Source: Acarospora socialis
Lineage: Eukaryota; Ascomycota; Lecanoromycetes; Acarosporales; Acarosporaceae
Length of the DNA stretch: 64,000 nt
Reading direction: 5' to 3'
NCBI GenBank assembly: GCA_025617375.2
Contig: JAMYGW020000005.1
Location: 186,001-250,000, forward strand
Of this stretch, positions 23,521 to 63,461 are shown piece after piece. The first letter of the stretch is position 1. The number at the start of each line of letters is the position of its first letter. The position numbers and the translations under genes were made by a program. A model generated the notes under the pieces. The model made no database searches. It saw only the letters and a list, made by a program, of their open reading frames with translations, and was not told the origin of the DNA.

Positions 23521-23855
23521 GTACTCAAAAGATATACACATCTTAGAGATGTGCACACTTGAAAGATATACATGCTCTGAGAGTGTGAGCACTTCAAATA
23601 TATACACTCTTGAAAAATATGCAACTAAAAGATGTATGCACTCAGAAGATATACACACTTGAAGAGTATGCATAACTGAAAGATGTGTGTACTCAAAAGA
23701 TATATACACTTGAAGAATATGCACAACTGAAAGATGTGTGCACTCAGAAGATATACACTCTTGAAGAGTATGCATGACTGAAAGATGTGTGCACTTAAAT
23801 GTATACACACTTGAAAAATATGAATGTCTAGAAGTATACACACTTAAAGAGTGTG
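23521..23855. repeat. Minisatellite: 17-bp unit in 51-bp higher-order repeats
   Basis: About 20 head-to-tail copies of a 17-bp unit. Three variant units (gatatacacacttgaag, agtatgcataactgaaa, gatgtgtgtactcaaaa) alternate in fixed order to give a 51-bp higher-order unit, best seen from 23657 to 23810. Since 51 is a multiple of 3, one minus-strand frame stays open through the array (23464-23868) as a 17-residue repeat (type HLSVMHTLQVCISSEC). Unit differences are mostly transitions. It could be the repeat region of a former protein gene or plain minisatellite DNA. Confidence 0.85.
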
Positions 23856-24161: not shown

Positions 24162-24477
24162 TGTTACATTCCAACTGAGATTTCTCAGTTATAGAGCTAG
24201 AGTTTATGCTTCTTGATATAAAGGTCCAAAGGTTCTAGGTAAACAGTAGCTTTGTATTGTGTAACTAGATGAGTTGAACACAGTCAATTTCATAAGAAAA
24301 TCAACTCTACTATATAGAAACAGGCACACTGACACACTCAGCATTCTGGTGTTCTGATGTGTTCTTGACACATACTCATGAGAAAATGCCTGATATTTCA
24401 TTGTTTCATGCTCAGAACTATGCCTGCTTCAGATGTATCTCTTATCATGTTACTCTTCTTAAAGTATGATCATAACA
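24162..24477 (-). repeat. Left (3') LTR of Gypsy-B
   Basis: 316 bp, TGTTACATT...CATAACA. It pairs with 29915-30230 along the whole length. A tactatatag TATA-like motif lies near 24307-24316. The next bases, read on the minus strand, are a purine-rich run (gaagagaagagatga), as expected of a polypurine tract upstream of a 3' LTR, which confirms minus orientation. Confidence 0.92.
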
Positions 24478-24494
24478 TCATCTCTTCTCTTCAG
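24478..24494 (-). promoter_or_regulatory. Polypurine tract of Gypsy-B (plus-strand DNA primer site)
   Basis: The minus-strand sequence touching the 3' LTR reads gaagagaagagatga, all purine but for one t. Position and composition fit the RNase H-resistant primer used for second-strand synthesis in LTR elements. The leader beyond it (caggcactag on plus) is shared with Gypsy-A. Confidence 0.6.
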
Positions 24495-24540
24495 GCACTA
24501 GTCCTCTAGAATCTATTTAAGCAAGAGTATATATCAGCAT

Positions 24541-24900
24541 TTGTTCATCAACTTTTTGATGATGCATCTGAAATCCAAAAATCACCTTCATCTTGCTGAT
24601 ATCATCTTTTGTAAAGAAGATCCTGCTCTTGTTTTCTGTGATTGTTGTCTCAACATCAGTCTTTCTTGTATTGTGATGTCTTCTGATTCTTTGATGTTGT
24701 CTAACTTCTTGAAGTCTGTGAAGTGTGCTGAGTGTATTTGTTGAGGTCATTTCTGCATTGATCTCTCTCTTGATTTCTTGAAGTCTGTTCATTTAAAGAC
24801 TGAAAATGAACTCTTCTTGACTCTTGATGAACAGCTCCCCACACTTTTAGCAAAAATTGCCAGATTGCAGAAAATCTTGAAACAGTCTGAAGCTTGAATA
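24541..24900 (+). pseudogene. Cysteine-rich ORF antisense in Gypsy-B
   Basis: The plus-strand reading lies between the 3' LTR and pol, opposite in direction to pol. It shows the paired-cysteine head (FCDCCLNISLSC, then KCAECIC) and a Leu-rich tail (LPTLLAKIARLQKILKQ) typical of a short coiled coil. The same arrangement occurs in Gypsy-A (3413-3718) and Gypsy-C (57265-57666). Conservation of Cys spacing and position across three copies argues that it once coded a protein. Function unknown; broken here as the rest of the element is. Confidence 0.55.
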
Positions 24901-25114
24901 GACACAAAAATGAGGTGTTTTGCTGAAGAGCTTGTGGATGATAATGATGGAACTGAGAATGAAAATTCTCAAACAATGTCACAACTTGTTGACTCAATAT
25001 CACCATTCTTCTGGGCTAATGTTGACTTCTTTTCTCAAAACATCAAAGTGTTCTCACACAGTTCTTGAGGTTTTCTCTTGACTCTCAAGTGTTTTCTGAG
25101 GTGTCATAGTCTTT

Positions 25115-25444
25115 TCATTTGATGAGGTAGTGAGCTTCCCCACTAATCATTCTCTTCCCTAGAATGTCCTCAACTTTGTATTCTTTGTTGGGTTTGACAG
25201 ATGTTTCAGTGGTTTGAAGTGGTATGAACTGATTGCAATGCTGTAGCATCAATGCATGAAATACTGAATGTATCTTCATTCTCTTGAGTAAGTCTAGCTC
25301 ATAGCTTAATTCCTTGATGTTCCATATGATTCTAAATGGTTCAATGCTCTTGTTCTTCAGCTTCTTGCTTCTTCTCTTAGTCTGTATGTTATTCATTCTT
25401 AGATATATCTTTTCTTCTTCTTCAAATAGTTTTGTCTTTGTCAT
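25115..25444 (-). pseudogene. Gypsy-B integrase C-terminus with chromodomain
   Basis: The 109-codon minus-strand reading contains the integrase C-terminal SH3-like region (RRSKKLKNKSIEPFRIIWNI, then YELDLLKRMKIHSVFHALML), followed by a chromodomain-like start (EYKVEDILGKRMISGEAHYL). In chromoviruses this module directs insertion to marked chromatin. It continues to the right into the integrase core. Part of the Gypsy-B fossil. Confidence 0.8.
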
Positions 25445-26300
25445 CTGTTCTGTCTGCTGTCCAATTCATTCTGTTAGGTCTTGGTGCAGTTTTTTCATTT
25501 GAGTGATATTCAAAATCACTTTTTGGCTTCATCATCCATGTTCTTTGAGATTTTGCCATATCTTTGGGTTGTAGCCATAGTTCACATAGAAAGGTGTCTC
25601 TCCCATGATCTTGTTCTTTGCATTGTTGTATGCAAATTGTGCTGTTGACAACAATCATACTCAGTCATCTTGATTCTTGTCAACATAGTGTCTCAAGTAT
25701 GTTTCTACCATTTGGTTCATTCATTTGCTCTGCTCATCTGTCTGTGAGTGGTATGTTGTTGACATCTTGTGTTTTATTCTGAGTTCTGCTGTGAGCATTT
25801 CTCAAAACTTGCTCATAAACAGCTTGTCTCTGTTGGTGATAAACTTCTTTGATAGTTCATGATTGCTAATCAATTCTCTTAGTATTGTGTATGTCAATAT
25901 TGGTGCTGTTGTGGTTTTCTTGAATGAAATGAACATTGTGTACTTGATCAATCTATTCACTATGATCAATATACTATTGAATCTTACTTTCCATGCTGAA
26001 TCCTTTGATGGTGATAGCTTTGTAATGAAGTTCATGGTAACTGACTTTCATGGTGCATTTGGTGTGTTCAGTCATGTTACTTTGTCATATCATCTATCTC
26101 AGTTGATTCTGTTCTTTTGACATGAATCACACACAACAATCATCTTGACAATTCAATTTCAAAGATTGCTAATGTTGTGTCTTCTTTGCACTAGATTCTC
26201 AGTGCATTTAACTTCTAGGTGCCCTCTGACCCTGCTGTAGTGACATATCTTAATGAGTTCTTCATTCATCAAGAAAGCTTGCTTCACCTTGTACATTGCT
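25445..26300 (-). pseudogene. Gypsy-B integrase core and zinc-binding region
   Basis: Minus-strand core: MNFITKLSPSKDSAWKVRFN and FISFKKTTTAPILTYTI at 25802-26035, typical of the Gypsy integrase catalytic core. The zinc-binding part lies around 26159-26250 (SRVRGHLEVKCTENLVQRRH). It also aligns with Gypsy-A 4726-4983 on the opposite reading. Fossil, many breaks. Confidence 0.8.
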
Positions 26301-27700
26301 GCTAAGTTCTTTGTGAGAATTTTGTTGTTGTCTTTGCTCAGAATTTCAGCATGTACTCTTTGTACATCTTCATGATCAGGTTGTCTACTCAAGGTATCTG
26401 CTTTGCTGTTTTCATTACTCTTCTTGTAATGGATTTGGAATTCATAGTCTGCCAACTGCTTCACTCAATGAACTTGTTGTTGATTGAGTTGCTTTGTCAT
26501 TGCAAAGTTCCTCAGGTTCTTGTGATCTGTGTAGATCTGAATTGACTTGCTTGTTCTCACAAGGTAAGATCTTCAATCTTGTAGTGCTTTCACTATTGCA
26601 AGAAGTTTCTTGTCATGAACTTCATACCTTTTCTTGAGTTCTGATAGTTTTCTAAATCAATATGCTATGAATCTCTGTTGTTCTTCTTTGATCTGATATA
26701 AGTATGTGTTTACTGTGAAATCTGAAGCATCAGTTTTCAGTATCTTCTCACATGCTGAATTGAGTATTCTCAGGTGTGCTGTTCCACTAAGACTTCTCTT
26801 TAATATGTAAAATGCATTCTTCTGTTTCTTATCCCAATGCTATTTTTTGCTCTTATGTGTTAGACATGTTAGTGATTCTGCAATTTTTGCATAATCTGGT
26901 ACAAACTTTCAATAGTAGTTTGTCAATCTCAGAAAGACTTGCACTTTCTTAATTCATTTTGATGTTGACCAGTTCCTGACTGCTTCTGTCTTCTTAGAAT
27001 TCTTCTCAATTTGTTCAGGTTGAATTACATAGTCTAGAAACTCAACTTTCTTGATCTTGAACCTGCTTTTTGACTTTTTCACATACAAGACTCTCTCCTT
27101 GAGCTTTGTCAATATCTTTTGCATATGTTTGCAGTGCTCTTCAAGATCTTCTGAGTATATCAGAATATCATTAAGGTACATGATCACAAAATCATCAAGA
27201 TATTCTCTCAACATGTCATTGATCAATCTCTGAAAGGTGACTGAGACATTCTTCAACTCAAATGACATGATAGTGTATTCATAATGTTCATATCTCATTC
27301 AGAATGTCATCTTTCATTTTTCACCTTCTTTCATTCTAACTTGGTAATAGGTGTCTTTAAGGTCTAAGCTTGTGAACTACTTAGTCTTTTTCAACTGATC
27401 TTGCAACTCTTCTATCAATGATAGAGAATAACTATCTTGGTGAGTTATCTTGTTGAGTTGTCTGTAATTGACACATAGTCATTTCTTGCCATTCTTCTTC
27501 AATACAAACAGAATCAAATATTCTGCTGATGACTTCAATGATCTTATGAATTCTCTCTTCAGATTTTCATCAAGATAAGTTTTAACTTTCTTGAGCTGAT
27601 TCTTGCTCATTGAGTATAATGGCATTCACTTCAGTTGCTTTCCATCCAATAGCAGTATTTCATAATCTCATGACTTATGCTTCAGTAAGCTCATCTCTGG
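26301..27700 (-). pseudogene. Gypsy-B reverse transcriptase and RNase H
   Basis: Minus strand. RNase H end near 26370-26464 (ADYEFQIHYKKSNENSKADT, then LSRQPDHEDV). RT palm and thumb at 26954-27298 (VTFQRLINDMLREYLDDFVI; YLNDILIYSEDLEEHCKHM; FLDYVIQPEQIEKN). The Gypsy RT order is clear and the YxxD-box region is recognisable. Broken in many places. Confidence 0.85.
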
Positions 27701-29888
27701 TTGCTTGAGGATCTTGTATGTGTTCTTGATTGTGCATATCTCTTTTGTAACTCAATTGATTCTTGAATTTCTTCTGTGTAATCAAGGCATTTCTAGTACT
27801 GCATTGTATCTGATTGATTTCATAATGTCAAACATTATCTCTTGTGAATTTTCAAGAATTGAGACTTTCACACAGGTTTCCTCATCAATTCTTTCTATGA
27901 CTTCATTCATCATTCATATGTTGAATGAACAGCACACTCACCTCATTCTCAATTCTAACATATCAACCAATCATTGACTCATGATATTACCATCTGCTCC
28001 AAAGTCCAATAATGCATTGATCTGGTGTTTGTTGATCACAATCTTGGTTCATATTCTATGATCATTGTTTTGTCTTTGAGACATTGCTAGCTCCTTTTTC
28101 TCTAGTCTTGTTGAGAAAGCTCTTTGTTTTTTGACTCACTTGGTTGTTTGACTCATCTTCAAAGTTCTTGAAACCATCTGGGTTCCCTTCTGACCATAAG
28201 GTTTGCATACTTCAGACTATACTGCTCAATGCATCTTTCTGAATGTAGTTGAAGTTCATATTGATTGTACTTCATCTGCAACTGACTCTCTAAGACTCTT
28301 ATTCTTTGCAGAAATTCAAGTGATATATACTCTTCACTGAAGATTCATCTGTCTTCATTTTGTGTGATATACCCTTCAGGTAAGTGTATCTCAATCTTGT
28401 GGCTTTTTGTTCTTCAAACAAGAAATCTTGACAGTACTGTGTTGTCACTGCTGAAACATTCATCTTTAACAGCTATCATCAGCTTCTTTAGCTGACCATA
28501 TGTCTTTTGTTCTTTTGCACTCTTGTGTTGCACTTTCTGTTTCTGAGCTTGCATCTCTTGCTCAAGCTCTTGCTTCTCAAATTGAAGCTTTTCTTCTTTC
28601 AACACTTGGTGTTGGTTCTCAAGGTGCTGATATGTCATTTTCAGCCTCATATCAACTTTTCATTCATTGATTTCTTTCTGGTCTGCATCTGAATTCAGTG
28701 CTTGTCAGATGCTATCACTGTAGTCTTCTTCTATCTGAGTTTCTTGAGTATTGATCTCTTCAATCTCAGCATCAAGGACATCTTTCTTGGTAAGGATAGC
28801 TAATTCTCTCTCATAGATTGATTGACTTGTTGTGTTGTATCATTTCCTCACATCTTTGCACAGTTTCTGAGAGTACCATCTGACTTCATCTTTTGCACTC
28901 ATATGTGCTCAGCACATATCATCATAACAGGCTGTTCAACTCAGAACATCATGCACTATGCTTGGTTTCTTTGTCTTTGCTTTGGTCATTACTGCTGCAA
29001 CATTCTTTCTCTTCATTTGAGGTCTGTTGCATTCTTGAGCAAGGTGTTTGAGTTTTTCACAGTTATAACATGTTCACATCTCATTTCACAGTGTTGTCTG
29101 AGACTTAGTGAATTGCTCTATCTGACATTCAGACTTCACTCATCTAGTCTTTCATGACTTCTGATGGTGCTTCTTGATTGTGTTGAGGTTCATAGAGTTT
29201 AGATATGATTGTCTTTGGTTATTCTCAAGAGTCTATCTGTTCATTCTTGATGTCAGTAGTTCTTTCTCTTCATCTGATGTTCTCATTGATGACTGTCTAT
29301 CATAATTGTTTGATTGATTAGTTTCTGCAAGTTGTCAGATCTCTTGTCTTGTGTGATCTTGTCTTTGATAGACTCTTTCAACTCTCAATAGTATGTTGAT
29401 GTTAACTGATTCATGTTTCATTGTGTGAGTGCTGCAAGTCATTGAAACTCTGTCACATACTTGACTGCAGATTCTTCTTGTCATAGTGTGTGAATCTTCT
29501 GTTCTGCTGCATGTTTCTCATTCACTATCTTGAAGATTACTTTAAGCTTCTTCTTGAACTGTTCTCAGTGACTGATATATGAGGTGTTTGCTTCTTTCTT
29601 TCTCAAGCTCATGGCCAGAAACTCTTTAAGCTTGAGCTTGACTCAGTTGAACACTGTGTTCTTCAGGTAGGATATTGTGAACAAGACTCTGTTGATATTG
29701 CTTGAAAACTTCTTCACATTGAATTTGACATACAGGTCTAGTTGGGCAAGAAATTGTCTCAGGTTTCAATGATTGCCTGTAAAGTTCTCTGATGTCTTGA
29801 CTTTGAGTACTTTTGAGTTGACATTGACTGTCTTTGTTGGTTCAGTGCTCTGTGACACACCATCTGAGATTGATTCTTTGGATGACAT
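27701..29888 (-). pseudogene. Gypsy-B gag and protease region
   Basis: The minus-strand reading opens at an ATG at 29888, 26 bases inside the 5' LTR boundary (MSSKESISDGVSQSTEP). A CCHC zinc knuckle of form C-x2-C-x4-H-x4-C sits at 29029-29070 (CYNCEKLKHLAQEC), which identifies gag nucleocapsid. A Gln/Glu/Lys-rich coiled-coil stretch lies at 28414-28650. The protease region (about 27.7-28.1 kb) is less clear. Fossil. Confidence 0.75.
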
Positions 29889-29914
29889 TCTTTATATTGT
29901 GAGGGTGTTCAAAG

Positions 29915-30230
29915 TGTTATGTCTCAACTGAGATTCCTTGATTATAGGGCTAGAGTTTATGCTTCTTGATATAAAGATTCAAAGGTTCTAGGTAAACAGT
30001 AGCTTTGTATTGTGTAACTAGATGAGTTGAACATGATCAATTTCATAAGAAAATCAACCCTACTATATAGAAACAGACACACTGACACACTCAGTGTTTC
30101 AGTGTTCTGATGTGTTCTCAGCACATGCTCATGAGAAAACATCTGACATTCTGTTGTTCTGTGCTCAGAACTATGCCTGCTTCAGGTGTATCTCTTATCA
30201 TGTTACTCTTCTTGAAGTATGGTTGTAACA
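29915..30230 (-). repeat. Right (5') LTR of Gypsy-B
   Basis: 316 bp, TGTTATGTC...TTGTAACA. Same length as the left LTR. A TATA-like tactatatag lies near 30061-30070. Differences from the left LTR are nearly all C/T or G/A. Confidence 0.92.
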
Positions 30231-44432: not shown

Positions 44433-44642
44433 TATTGAGAGATAAATAAATACTTGTGCTATACTGCTGACTAACTGTCTATCTAGTGAAACATACATCA
44501 TTGACTTAACTATAATCAACATAAGTTGTAGAGATTGTTTATTTACATACTCTGTTATGCAGACTATATGAATAATGAGTAATTTTTGATGTTAATTTCA
44601 ACTAAGACTATGAAAGCAGTTAGAACACTGCACTTCTTAATA
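44433..44642 (-). repeat. Left (3') LTR of Copia-A2
   Basis: 210 bp, aligned with 49682-49891 end to end (shared ataaataaatacttgtgcta, tgctgactaactgt). Terminal inverted ends of the TGTTGAGA/TCTCAACA type, recognisable despite C-to-T decay. Confidence 0.9.
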
Positions 44643-45486
44643 CTTTCACTTGATGATGCTGCATCTATTGACTTTCATTAACAGTAAGTTTCAGTTGTTC
44701 AACAAAGTACTTAAAAATTCATTTAAATAAGAACTTAATTAATTCATCAGTCATCATGTCTTGACTAAACACAAAGTTCACATCAATCTGATTTCACTTG
44801 TGCAGATCATGAATATGATGGCAGACAATGTTAATGTATTTTAATCACTCATGCACATATGCATTCTTAATCAAAGTCAAAACAATCTGATTGTCTTTCT
44901 TGAACTGAAGAAATGAGACTGCTTGATGAACTTCATTCTTTTTGATGTTTACACAGTATGAATTGTCTTCAAAATACTTATTTATATTCATGTCTTACAG
45001 CATCTGTGTAAATCAGACTTCAGTCTTTGTACATATTGATATGATTATGTATTCAGTCTCTATAATTGAGATGATAACAGATATCTGCTTTTGACTTGTT
45101 TATAACATTAATTTGTTTTTAAGCATATACATATGTTTCAGAATTGACTTTCAATCTTGTTTATCTGATGCATAGTTGAAGTCAGAGTATTTAAGCATGA
45201 CTTGACTCTCACTGAGTTTATACACAATGTTAAAATTGATGATTGATCTAACATATTACAGCAGTTTCTTGAGTACATGTTCATGATGTTCTACAAAATC
45301 ATTAAAATATTAACTTAGTTGATCTAGAGCAAAGATGATGTTCAGTTGAGTATGAATTACTGTATATATCAGACTTTTAATTGCATATTGATAATGTTTT
45401 TAATCTATTCTTTGATCAGCTGAGTTAATGATATGAAAAGTATTATATTCATTGAGTGAAATCATTGTGATCTTGTGCTTGTCAAA

Positions 45487-45705
45487 TTACATATAAAGAT
45501 CTCTTAGCATCTTATTTACATAGTGAGTTTGATTTAAATATAGAGTTCTTTTCTTGTGATTATGTGTGACTTGTATATTAAGAATTTTCTGTGTCTTCTT
45601 TAAGTTCTTAACTTTGAACATTTTCACAAGAACTTTCTTAAATCTGAGAACATGTATCAAACTTACTGAGACTACAATTATATTATTTACATAGAGAAGC
45701 AGCAT
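45487..45705 (-). pseudogene. Copia-A2 reverse transcriptase palm region
   Basis: The minus-strand frame covers the YVDD-box region (LLLYVNNIIVV), followed by FKKVLVKMFKVKNLKKTQK and LYLNQTHYVNKMLRDL, the standard Copia RT order. Part of the fossil. Confidence 0.87.
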
Positions 45706-48201
45706 GATTCTTTTGATACTGTTGATGAAAAAACATAAGTTAATGTTACTTTAATGAAAGTTTAATTTGTGCAGATCAGTGATGCATCATTTATGTCAGT
45801 TTTGTGCAGTTTACTTTAGATCATAAAGACTATACAATATACACAGTGCACAGTCAGATGCAACTTGAACTTCAAAAAAGATTATTATGTAAATGATTTT
45901 CTTAAGAAAGAATTTTGTGAAGATGTTGTTGATATTTATCTGATGACATTCAAGATTCTTAAGAACAACAATGACAAGAAAGACTTAAAGAGTGTTAAAT
46001 TTGACTGTAGATGTAAAGATGTTCTTATAATCAATGTTATATATTTGTGAGAAATCTCTTGTCACAATTTTTGTCTTAAATTTGTTCAGAAATTCATCAG
46101 TGTTCAGTTTAAATTTAAATATTCATTTGCTGATCACTATATTTACATTCTTTGATGACACAATCTCTTTTTATATTCTGTTGACTGTCAGAACTGTTAA
46201 TTCTGCATGAATAGTATTTTTTTACATCTTTTTTCAGACTAAGTCTCTCACTGCTTCAATATAGATAACAAACATGAAAATGTCAGATTTAATGTTCTCA
46301 GTGTCTTTTTTATTATCTGTGATGAATACTGTAAGTATTAACATAGTTTATAATATCTTGATTATGAACTCATTAAAGTCTTTATTGTCATCATTTCATT
46401 TTCTCTTCAGCATCTCAACACACAAGAATGTCTTAACTTTCTCAGTTAAAATATTCAGTGCTTTGCTGACAAGAACTTCAATATGTAAAAACTGCTTGAT
46501 TTCATTCTGTTCACTTGTCTGTAATCTGTTTAAATTGATTATGATTGATTTATTTATCATATGAATGTCTGATGAAAATATATTGAGATTGTCTGCAGTT
46601 AACTTGAATTCTTCTTTGTTGTCTGAACTCATGAATCTAAATTTATAAATTTGCTCAAAAACAGTAAACAGAGTTGTAGATGCTGCAGAATTCATGATGA
46701 CTGCATTTTTTCATAATTATTTAACTGACTTCTGTTCAGACAGAATATTCAGCATTTGTCTTTGCAGTTTGAGATCAACACTGTTTTTCTTCTCATTCTT
46801 GACAAACTTCACAACATAATTTTTAATGATTCACTTAAAATCTGAAATTCAAAGCAGATACTGCTTTATGATTTTATCTGCATAACTTATGAAGATTTTT
46901 ATTCATTCTTAATTCATAAACTTATTCTGTCTACTCTTTAACAACAACTTGAGATCAATATAGAAGTAGTACTTGCAATTTTAGACACAAATGTAATCAA
47001 TGAATAACTACACATCAGTGAAGATCTTCTTTGAAGTTATTTGTCTGTCATTGATTAAGAGACTGATTGCTGTTCAATTGTAAAGATAAACATTTATTTG
47101 TGCTATCTTCACTCAGAACTTTATTGAAAGTTCTGTCTTTTTAATCATGATGTACACTGAGTTCTCAGTGATATGAATGACTCTTTCAGCAACATTATTC
47201 TGAATAAACATATAAAACACAGTGTACTGCAGTGTGATGTTAAAAAATCTGCATCAGTCATTCAGAGTTAATTTTAATTTTGTGACATTGTCACTCTATA
47301 CAGCAAGCACTTTTGTACTGATCTGAAGCTCAATTTTTAGTTATTACTCTTGCAGTTTCTGTGAGACATTATTGTATCACTTCAGCAATATTATTCATAT
47401 CTTTTGAAAATAGCTGTTCACAATCTTCAGAAAGTACTGATGTTCAGTAAATGACAGAGATAAAAAACTGCATATATTAATGAAAATCAGAACAAGAATG
47501 TTGATCTTTTTCTTACTCACATTGTATTCTTACTGATTAATAAACTTAATGAGAACATAAATTTCACAGATATTCTTCTTGTCTTCAGCAATGAGAATTG
47601 ACTTCTTAAAAATTGTAACTTTATAAAGATCATGAAGTTTTGCAGAGTCAAGATAAGCAAACTATTGATGTCACAGCTTGTAGATCTTGATCTTTTCACT
47701 CAAAAATGAAGTATCAGCAAAGAATGAAGAGTCAGCAGAACTTAATGAATCAGTCTGCATCTAAAAGTTCATATTTGATATTGTGACTGAAAGAATCATC
47801 TCTGAATTAAATAACATGTGTATGACAGATAACAGAATGAATTTATTCAGTTTTTTTGCAATATATTTGATTATATAGACACTGTTTCACTCAGACACTT
47901 TTATTATAACATTGTTATGTTTATTTCACATATAAAGACTGTGCTGATCAAAGCTTTTCTGCAATTTCATTTTGCACATTTGCTTTTTCAATAGAAGATT
48001 AACTTTTAGTTCAGACACATAAAGTGTTAAACTCAGATTTACAAAGTTTCTGAATTTGTTCTGCATCACAGTTACTTCATAGTAATGAGAGTAGAAGTGT
48101 TTCTTCTCAACTTTAATTCTTTAACATAATATGTATATCAAAGAATCACTGAAGAATTAATATTGATTAGTTATGTATGTGAAATATTCAGAATTCACAA
48201 C

Positions 48202-48540
48202 TCATTCAGAACTAAATATTTTACTGACAGCTTTCTTGAACAGAATGACAATTTTATTATCTTTCTCTGCATTGAACTCAGATGAGAATGAGTCATTATT
48301 TTTCTTAGTTTCAACATCAAAAGCTCTATGCTTTCTGTTTCTGTGCTTGAATCTTATTTTGTTTTTATGATGTGAATTGTCTGCAGACAACTTATCTGAC
48401 TTTTTGACTAACTTGACTGCAGTTAAAACAGATAACTTTTTTAACTTAATGTTCTTGTAAGCAGTGAAAAGATATTCACAGTCTCAAATGTAATGAGAAT
48501 CACAACAGAAAAAACATTTAACTAATTTACACTGAGAAGA
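48202..48540 (-). pseudogene. Copia-A2 gag zinc knuckle and linker to protease
   Basis: Minus strand: a zinc-knuckle motif CFFCCDSHYI...DC at about 48478-48530, then a polar linker (NKIRFKHRNRKHRAFDVETK and SSEFNAEKDNKIV at 48202-48390) leading into the protease start. This is the usual Copia gag/protease junction. Fossil. Confidence 0.7.
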
Positions 48541-49670
48541 GTGATTATTGCTGAAGCTTGATGATCTCTGATAGTGATATCTCACATTATGTTGATATAA
48601 ATGTGTTGAGTTTTTCTCTTTACATTAATCTGTTCATAAAACAGTCTCAACAGTCTTTAATTATGTTTTCTTCTCTTAAAGCTTCTACAGACTTCTCTTG
48701 ATGTTTGAGATGTTTTAAGTGTTAATTATGTCATAAATCACTGTGTAATTCTCAGATAATGCTTGAAGAAGTGTCTGAAATTATTGCTCAGACTTAAATA
48801 GATCAGTCATATCAGACTGAGTCACAGCAATTTTTCTGTTCAGCTTGCTGAGATATGTTTATACTTCATCAATAAATATATTTGTCAGCATTCTGTATTC
48901 AATAAACTTCATTAAATATTGTCTTTCAGTGATCTGCAGCTTCTTCTTGTATTTGAACTTCAAGATATTTTAAGTATTCTTTATATTAATCTTGTCTGCA
49001 ATGTACTTCTGATCATCTGCACTGATATAAATAATGAATTAATATAAAGTCTTTGTGTTAGACTTCTGATTTTCAAAATCAAGATTGCTGAGTAAAAAGA
49101 AGAAATCACTGACAAAAGTATTGATTGTTAAAATCTTAATGATATATTACAGATCTTCATTTATCAGTTATCTTCTTATGAGAATAAATCATTGATTGCA
49201 GTTCTTGTGACTGAGAATTGAGATGAGTTGTTGCTTTGTGAAAGAGTTGTTGAAATTCATAGTGTAGTTTTTAATGACAGTTGACACATAGTATAAGAAA
49301 TGAATAAAGTGAAGTATTAAGATGTATGAAAGAAGATAATGTAAATAAGAGAAAGAAGAAGTGTGAGTGTTTATTTGCTCAACTGTTGAGCATCATATCA
49401 AGTTGCTTATAAGTCTTGTTTTGCTCAATCTTAAAGCTTTGTATTGAGTACTGAGAATGTTATTTTACTTAATTTTAAATTTTATATTGATGATCAAGAG
49501 TGCTTGTTTTAATTCTGTATTAAGCTGTCAAGAATGTCATTTTACTCAATCTTAAAGCTCTGTATTGATGATCAGTAATATTTGTTTTACTTAATCTTTG
49601 AGTCTTCATATCAAGCTGTCAAGACACTAAAACAGTATGCATTTTCTCTGAGAAGCTTCTTGTTAATCTG

Positions 49671-49681
49671 AACTCATAATT
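49671..49681 (-). promoter_or_regulatory. Primer binding site of Copia-A2 (initiator-tRNA anticodon-loop type)
   Basis: On the minus strand the bases directly after the 5' LTR read aattatgagtt. TTATGAG is the complement of CUCAUAA, the anticodon loop of initiator tRNA-Met. Drosophila copia and yeast Ty5 are known to prime from an internal fragment of that tRNA. Copia-B has the same motif at the same place. Confidence 0.6.
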
Positions 49682-49891
49682 TATTGAGAAATAAATAAAT
49701 ACTTGTGCTATACTGCTGACTAACTGTTTATTTAGTGAAACATACATAATTGACTTAACTGTGATCAACATGAGTTGTAAAGATTGTCTATTCACATACT
49801 CTGTCATGCAGACTATATGAGTGATGAGCAATTTCTGATGTTAGTTTCAACTAAGACTATGAAAGTAGCTAGAACACTGCACTTCTTAACA
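49682..49891 (-). repeat. Right (5') LTR of Copia-A2
   Basis: 210 bp, start tattgagaaataaataaat, end cttcttaaca. Followed by the duplication gatag at 49892-49896. Confidence 0.9.
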
Positions 49892-62500: not shown

Positions 62501-62598
62501 CTCTTAAGTGAACATTAAATGAATCTGACTTTGCATCAGTGTTATTATGTCATTCTGACTGCACAGTCTTCAAAGTTCTTTGATTATTAGAAGAAAAT

Positions 62599-62704
62599 TG
62601 TTGAGAATCTAACCACTAAGACAAAAGACCCACCTGACTGCAAGATCAGGTTCTAAGTGAATGTATAAGTGAATGTGCAGATTGTGCAGCACATGATCTC
62701 AACA
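62599..62704. repeat. TRIM LTR 1
   Basis: 106 bp; the least mutated of the three, with aaccac, gaccca, cctgac and gatcagg intact. It differs from LTR 2 and 3 at few places, mostly C/T or G/A. Confidence 0.92.
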
Positions 62705-62974
62705 ACTGTTTCATCTTCACAAAAAGATGCTCACTCTCAAGCAAAAACACTATGTAATGAGTCTCAATTCAGGCTCAAATGCACACACATTCTTGTGAAT
62801 TTGAGTCACAAATGAGTGCAGATCTCAGACACAGACAGTAAGCTTAAGTGTAATTAACACTCTCAGTGCAGTCTTCAGTGAGTCTTCAGCATTTGTGATC
62901 TAGTCAGACTGTGCAATTTTGGTGTATCACACTTAGAAATTTGACACTGATAATGATCAGTTGATACTATCATT

Positions 62975-63080
62975 TGTTGAGAATCTAATCACTAAGACAA
63001 AAGATCTACCTGATCACAAGTTCAGGTTCTAAGTGAATGTATAAGTGAATGTGCAGGTTGTGCAGCACACAACCTTAACA
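62975..63080. repeat. TRIM LTR 2
   Basis: 106 bp; shared by both units, as expected for a tandem produced by LTR-LTR recombination or unequal exchange. Confidence 0.92.
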
Positions 63081-63350
63081 ACTGTTCTGTCTTTGCAAAA
63101 AGATGCTCATTCTCAAGCAAAAACACTATGTAATGAGTTTCAATTCAGACTCAAATGCACACACATTTTCACAGATTTGAGTCACAAATGAGCACAGATC
63201 TCAGATGTAGACAGTGAGCTCAAGTATAATTAACACTCTCAGTACAGTCTTCAGTGAGTCTTCAGCATTTGTGATCTGATCAGGCTGCATAATTTTGATG
63301 CATCACACTTAGAAATTTGACACTGATAGTGATCAGTTGATGCTATCATT

Positions 63351-63456
63351 TGTTGAGAATCTAATCACTAAGACAAAAGATCTACCTGATCATGAGATCA
63401 GGTTCTAAGTGAATGTATAAGTGAATGTGCAGGTTGTGTGATGCACAATCTCAACA
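63351..63456. repeat. TRIM LTR 3
   Basis: 106 bp, ends ctcaaca followed by agaat. Confidence 0.92.
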
Positions 63457-63461
63457 AGAAT

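Follow-up and report, generated by a model that had tools for sequence, protein, structure and literature searches.

Positions 62599-63456 of the window (the whole 64-kb stretch of DNA analysed here) raise the question of whether an exact tandem repeat is satellite DNA or the product of a mobile element. We read the repeat as very probably a minus-strand tandem copy of a TRIM, a non-coding LTR retrotransposon some 480 bp in length. A TRIM in tandem form had already been proposed from the sequence alone, and the solo LTRs, two-LTR copies, 5-bp duplications, primer site and lack of a conserved gene described below favour that proposal.

The element has the order LTR-internal-LTR-internal-LTR, with three LTRs of 106 bp, two internal parts of 270 bp and a repeat period of exactly 376 bp without an indel. 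LTR1 (62599-62704), LTR2 (62975-63080, the middle LTR, common to both units) and LTR3 (63351-63456) were delimited on the minus strand by sequence and repeat spacing. Internal part 1 (62705-62974) and internal part 2 (63081-63350), on the same strand, were delimited by sequence and unit alignment, and neither held a recognisable gene in an ORF scan. A 108-nt repeat family starts at 62598, 62974 and 63350 (spacing 376 and 376), and TRF reported a period of 376, 2.2 copies, 89% matches, 0% indels and a score of 1358 for the element; repeat spacing and TRF thus reproduce the dimensions given in the sequence-only reading. The 482 bp of indel-free similarity between the units is far beyond chance. 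On the plus strand TGTTGAGA starts all three LTRs, while TCTCAACA ends LTR1 and LTR3 and CCTTAACA ends LTR2. The flanking 5-bp duplication reported earlier is present as AAAAT (62594-62598) and AGAAT (63457-63461), with four of five positions identical.

The genome (31,147,409 bases in 38 contigs) was searched with the unit, the LTR and the internal part. It is probably fungal, judging by its size, by tRNA genes of a length that could include introns and by its RIP-like blocks. The family occupies at least 40 places in the 31 Mb, and its counts are lower bounds because only the best candidates were scored. These places comprise nine clear two-LTR copies (L026-L034), a heavily mutated copy (L035), a truncated copy with one LTR and an internal part (L036), 28 LTR-only places (L037-L064), some of them truncated, and the window element, which alone is tandem. 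All 12 of the 12 genome matches to the internal part were TRIM copies. A later search with another LTR yielded four further places, and a primer-site search yielded one diverged relative (L090); these five were left out of all family counts.

Target-site duplications were tested in 36 copies, leaving out four damaged places (L036, L049, L051 and L062). An exact 5-bp duplication was present in 26 of the 36, including all nine clear two-LTR copies, compared with 356 of 10,800 random positions under the same rule; this contrast is somewhat flattered because boundaries were placed first by eye with the flanks visible, then refined by one rule, and because TAACA-like ends raised the score of real copies only, no such bonus being given at random places. 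The other tested copies had four of five identical positions (five copies, that in the window included), three of five (four copies) or no boundary (one copy). A four-of-five match by itself says little, since random positions gave 2,187 in 10,800. The imperfect duplication of the window copy and the ten of 36 tested copies without an exact one count against the TRIM reading. The solo LTRs, two-LTR copies and 5-bp duplications that the sequence-only reading expected of a genome-wide LTR search were all found. A satellite or accidental tandem repeat, which the tandem arrangement and exact 376-bp period would fit and which the same reading would have recognised by long tandem arrays lacking duplications, is refuted by this dispersal with duplications, as only one of the 40 places is tandem and no long arrays occur among them, and it retains virtually no probability.

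The orientation of the element follows from its primer-binding site. Beside the right-hand LTR on the minus strand, L031, L032 and L034 carry AA-TGGTAGCACCAACTGG, in which TGGTAGCACCAACTGG is complementary at 16 of 16 positions to the 3' end (compared with CCA added) of the genome's own initiator tRNA-Met. The gene for this tRNA (L072, C6:149279-149350) was located by a tRNA search and a pattern search. In these three little-mutated copies, 2 nt separate the site from the 5' LTR that precedes it. As the primer-binding site is on the minus strand, the sense strand is the minus strand, LTR3 is the 5' LTR and LTR1 is the 3' LTR, which reverses the plus orientation implied earlier. A plus orientation was rejected, as no TGG-type primer site followed the LTR on that strand in the copies compared.

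In the window element, the primer-binding site of unit 1 (TGATAGTATCAACTGA, 62957-62972, minus strand) differs from the complement of the initiator tRNA at four positions and that of unit 2 (TGATAGCATCAACTGA, 63333-63348, minus strand, 2 nt from the LTR) at three, all being G>A or C>T. Among 13 sites in 12 loci, three were identical to the complement, nine had G>A or C>T changes only, and one (L030) also had an A>G, which RIP does not explain and which weighs against the TRIM reading. In L035 the site was changed so much that another place outscored it. A PPT-like end is seen in less mutated relatives at the place that corresponds to the one next to 62705 (minus strand): L034 and L032 carry the tract GGCGGGGCAGT, broken by pyrimidines, which in L034 is followed by TGTTACGG at the other end of the internal part. 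This tract is purine-rich to a moderate degree only, a further point against the TRIM reading.

The longest ORF lying fully inside the window element (among ORFs of 30 aa or more) encodes 48 aa, consistent with the earlier statement that the internal parts carry no gene. On its sense strand, the CpG-rich copy L034 contains a 116-aa open frame (L034:3490-3840, minus strand), the start ATG of which overlaps the primer site, and this frame counts against the TRIM reading. A coding TRIM was nevertheless rejected and the frame taken as chance: 82 of 5,000 shuffles were as open, and the frame was short or broken in all 11 other units read, the same start giving 51 aa in L032, 42 in L031, 22 in L036, 32 in each unit of the window element and no more than 68 in the remaining ones. 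A tRNA- or 5S-derived LTR was also rejected, as ARAGORN, run in bacterial mode, detected no tRNA in any of the 40 TRIM loci, half of them with only about 0.4 kb of flank, and Rfam gave no match at gathering score in five loci, where four matches had E values of 0.016-0.9. The sub-threshold Rfam match SCARNA18 touches the TRIM edge in L034. Folding of four LTRs gave z scores of -1.5 to -2.4, which is not convincing.

These features suggest a life cycle in which RNA transcribed from the LTR would be primed at the primer-binding site by initiator tRNA-Met. Mobilisation would occur in trans, with a reverse transcriptase copying the RNA and an integrase inserting the product, both from another element, and would leave the 5-bp duplications. 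Recombination between LTRs would then yield the solo LTRs and, at one place of the 40, the doubled unit, and a RIP-like process would convert the C of CpG and CpC to T within AT-rich blocks. Among the elements examined, no intact helper for the TRIM was found.

Candidate partners were sought through the primer site. Its pattern had 43 matches in the genome, compared with three for the control: 11 in known TRIM copies, one in the tRNA gene itself and 31 elsewhere. We read 13 of the 31, leaving out 18 with one mismatch each, and assigned nine to family H, two to family K, one to the diverged TRIM relative and one to an unrelated locus (L098). An unmutated H copy (L096/L100, about C14:501466-504488) is about 3.0 kb long, with LTRs of 176 and 183 bp (about 176-185 bp in the family) and a GTTGT/GTTGT duplication.

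A family with H-type ends and the same primer-binding site may supply the machinery for the TRIM, a possibility that we hold tentatively and place somewhat below an even chance. The unmutated H copy matches the tRNA at 16 of 16 positions, likewise 2 nt behind the LTR, and also has a 5-bp duplication; its U5 end, GATCCTAACA, is identical to that of the TRIM solo LTRs L041 and L054; and H accounts for nine of the 13 loci read outside known TRIM copies. Against seven TRIM copies, H agreed at 15-24 of 28 positions at the U5/PBS junction and at 10-16 of 20 at the PPT/U3 junction. 5-bp duplications and initiator tRNA-Met primers are common to many LTR families, a point against the proposal. H differs from the TRIM in its longer LTR and in a 480-aa ORF, which in the one H copy read has a sub-threshold protease match (RVP, Pfam, E 0.068), and BLAST between H and the TRIM found no similarity outside the primer-site region. 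No reverse transcriptase lies at the H copy among the matches listed, the Pfam scan having covered the 480-aa ORF. With only a weak protease match and no reverse transcriptase among those matches, H may itself be non-autonomous, and we take the copy with the 480-aa ORF to resemble the TR-GAG type of non-autonomous elements.

A further element of the window was nearly as good as H at the PPT/U3 junction, which tells against the proposal. This complete LTR element (24162-30230, with 316-bp LTRs, ATTTA on both sides and an RVT_1 match at 27029-27499 on the minus strand), which we infer to be Gypsy-like, agreed with the seven TRIM copies at 10-13 of 20 positions there and at 5-12 of 28 at the U5/PBS junction. 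By its cis signals, H is a candidate helper.

The sequence-only reading had pointed to the neighbouring Copia-A as a possible helper, on the ground that its LTR ends equal those of the TRIM. Copia-A is a complete 5,459-bp insertion (44433-49891) with a GATAG/GATAG duplication and a broken reverse transcriptase match at 45487-46155 on the minus strand. It shares with the TRIM a 5-bp duplication, a presumed initiator tRNA-Met primer and similar LTR ends (TATTGAGA...TCTTAACA as lying in the right LTR of Copia-A). The ends are thus similar, and the TCTCAACA end does occur in a relative near 53.5 kb; within the TRIM family, however, that end is confined to LTR1 and LTR3 of the window element and was absent from the other 39 copies compared.

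Behind its 5' LTR, Copia-A matches an internal (anticodon-arm) stretch of the initiator tRNA (TTATGAGCCCGG, 12 nt, three RIP-type changes) rather than the 3' end, so that the two elements match different parts of the same tRNA and do not share a primer-binding site. Of 2,000 random window pieces, three fitted the 12-nt stretch with up to four changes; a 14-nt fit (GGTTATGAGCCCGG) has five changes, and its null of 0 in 2,000 allowed only four. Such a site would presumably correspond to half-tRNA priming as in Drosophila copia. One genome would then hold two presumed uses of initiator tRNA-Met, by an internal part in Copia-A and by the 3' end in the TRIM.

At the PPT/U3 junction Copia-A agreed with six TRIM copies at only 7-8 of 20 positions, compared with 12-16 for H. 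At the U5/PBS junction it agreed with seven copies at 12-18 of 28; H was ahead in five of the seven, and Copia-A was one base closer in L030 and L033, the L033 comparison being cut one base off. H is therefore closer to the TRIM than Copia-A at most, but not all, junctions compared. Every one of the 148 Copia reverse transcriptase matches listed, from 150 scored out of 176 candidates, contains a stop, and the best has one. Similar ends and a complete insertion with a reverse transcriptase match leave Copia-A a weak and doubtful helper candidate, and we consider it improbable that it is the parent or helper of the TRIM.

The two units of the window element differ by 53 transitions and two transversions, with no indels, in 482 positions. 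Transitions and transversions numbered 11 and 1 between LTR1 and LTR2, 9 and 1 between LTR2 and LTR3, 16 and 0 between LTR1 and LTR3, and 33 and 0 between the internal parts. Compared with ten other copies, either unit showed 8-35 transversions and 5-15 gap events. The ratio of 53 to 2 without a gap therefore indicates that one copy was doubled before most of the transitions arose, whether by duplication at this site or by insertion of a dimer. That only one tandem was found weighs against the TRIM reading.

It is also conceivable, although rather unlikely in our estimate, that the tandem arose from dimeric or two-LTR-circle cDNA, or by insertion of a new copy into an old LTR, and not by unequal recombination. 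All such integration routes yield LTR-internal-LTR-internal-LTR inside one duplication. The sequence nevertheless cannot separate them from recombination in place, and the excess of transitions shows only that the units were nearly identical when mutation began. The doubling of one copy is common to these routes, and we favour recombination between LTRs as its probable origin.

The hallmark of RIP, C-to-T transitions in repeats on both strands, is seen in the differences between the units, in the context of the changes and in composition. The window contains no CpG, compared with about 1,406 expected from composition, and its observed/expected ratios are 0.07 for CpC, 0.09 for GpG, 1.51 for CpA, 1.54 for TpG and 1.30 for CpT. 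At other loci, blocks of about 50% GC rich in CpG adjoin blocks without CpG. Taking L034 to be near the unmutated state, C>T changes were pooled over both units of the window element and eight further loci, with LTR2, which the two units have in common, counted twice and L032 left out as little mutated. They affected 379 of 638 CC (0.59), 96 of 653 CA (0.15), 121 of 569 CT (0.21) and 383 of 726 CG (0.53), the last a rate with a ceiling near one half, since a single change removes two targets at once. L035 was heavily changed in all contexts. The spectrum points to a RIP-like process with CpG and CpC as its targets in place of the CpA usual for RIP. An enzyme is presumed to lie behind these changes; in the genome, DNA_methylase gave four matches at three places.

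We also compared the CpG content of 35 copies with that of their flanks. All 12 copies whose flanks bear CpG (at least 0.3 per 100 bases) have CpG of their own (1.0-8.3 per 100), and short copies in GC-rich DNA therefore seem not to draw mutation. Among the 23 copies whose flanks stand at 0.0, 17 lack CpG and six keep some (L029, L031, L032, L040, L047 and L064); these few seem to have entered mutated DNA later or to have escaped.

Persistence of the family in a RIP genome might be explained by copies too short for repeat recognition and by the unusual CpG-plus-CpC target, with the U5 versions perhaps being adaptations to helpers; this account is speculative, and we rate it as unlikely on present evidence. 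Escape of short copies is favoured by the CpGs kept in GC-rich DNA by LTRs and one 476-bp copy, by the CpGs kept in CpG-free flanks by the six copies named above, and by the stop codon in each of the 148 Copia matches listed. At least 23 RVT_1 matches of 687-753 bp, however, lie in stop-free open frames of up to 1,329 aa, so that some longer elements escaped too, which counts against shortness as the reason. In contrast to the Copia matches listed, these open frames may belong to non-LTR elements that were spared mutation.

Copies of the TRIM LTR differ in both length and sequence at the U5 end, reading TGTTGAG, TGTTATG, TGTTATAG, TGTAATG, TGTAAAG, TGTTAGG or TGTCACAAATG in plus reading, and the adjoining GATCT is more conserved (L025-L064). 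In several copies both LTRs agree in U5 type, and L028 has two different types.

TRIM elements were reportedly described in plants by Witte et al. in 2001 and in fungi by Santana et al. in 2013. The family reported here is new, the kind of element is already known, and the find is moderately interesting for the host's mutation system. As one short element present in both mutated and unmutated DNA, it offers a natural test of the recognition length and sequence context of RIP.

Tandem TRIMs and solo repeats are known in plants, cestodes and bivalves, and TRIM reports in animals numbered only a handful by a 2019 count (available text of PMC6934838). The plant and bivalve elements (biv-TRIM) resemble the present ones in their short LTRs, short gene-free internal parts, solo repeats and tandems of the form TDRx_I(x-1), as far as that text describes them. 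Here, in contrast, there is one tandem, with x = 3, and dense C-to-T change in the copies within AT-rich blocks; the likeness is one of structure. The accessible part of PMC5689174 gives TRIMs, as counts, in three of five Boletales genomes, and these are likewise non-coding LTR elements of low abundance in fungi. In the open-licence literature searched, no fungal TRIM with a primer tRNA, a candidate partner family and a tandem form was found.

RIP in Pezizomycotina and the CpG-biased hypermutation of Basidiomycota favour CpA or CpG, respectively (sections of PMC2621366 and PMC4014442). As those sections describe them, both resemble the present case in C-to-T change in repeats on both strands; here, however, CpG and CpC are hit and CpA and CpT mostly left intact. 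In Rhizoctonia solani AG8, according to a table in PMC4014442, changes at CpC are spaced more closely than those at CpG. The portions available of PMC12210899, PMC13041039, PMC12774611 and PMC3562529 concern TRIMs or RIP and contain no comparable case, and the open-licence literature searched gave no report of RIP at CpG plus CpC.

Two minor observations complete the survey. A TRIM solo LTR (L101, C1:3482933-3483040), flanked by CTGAC at each end, is located some 200 bp upstream of a tRNA gene. In the window itself, TRF also reported a tandem array with a 51/102-bp unit at 23547-23826.
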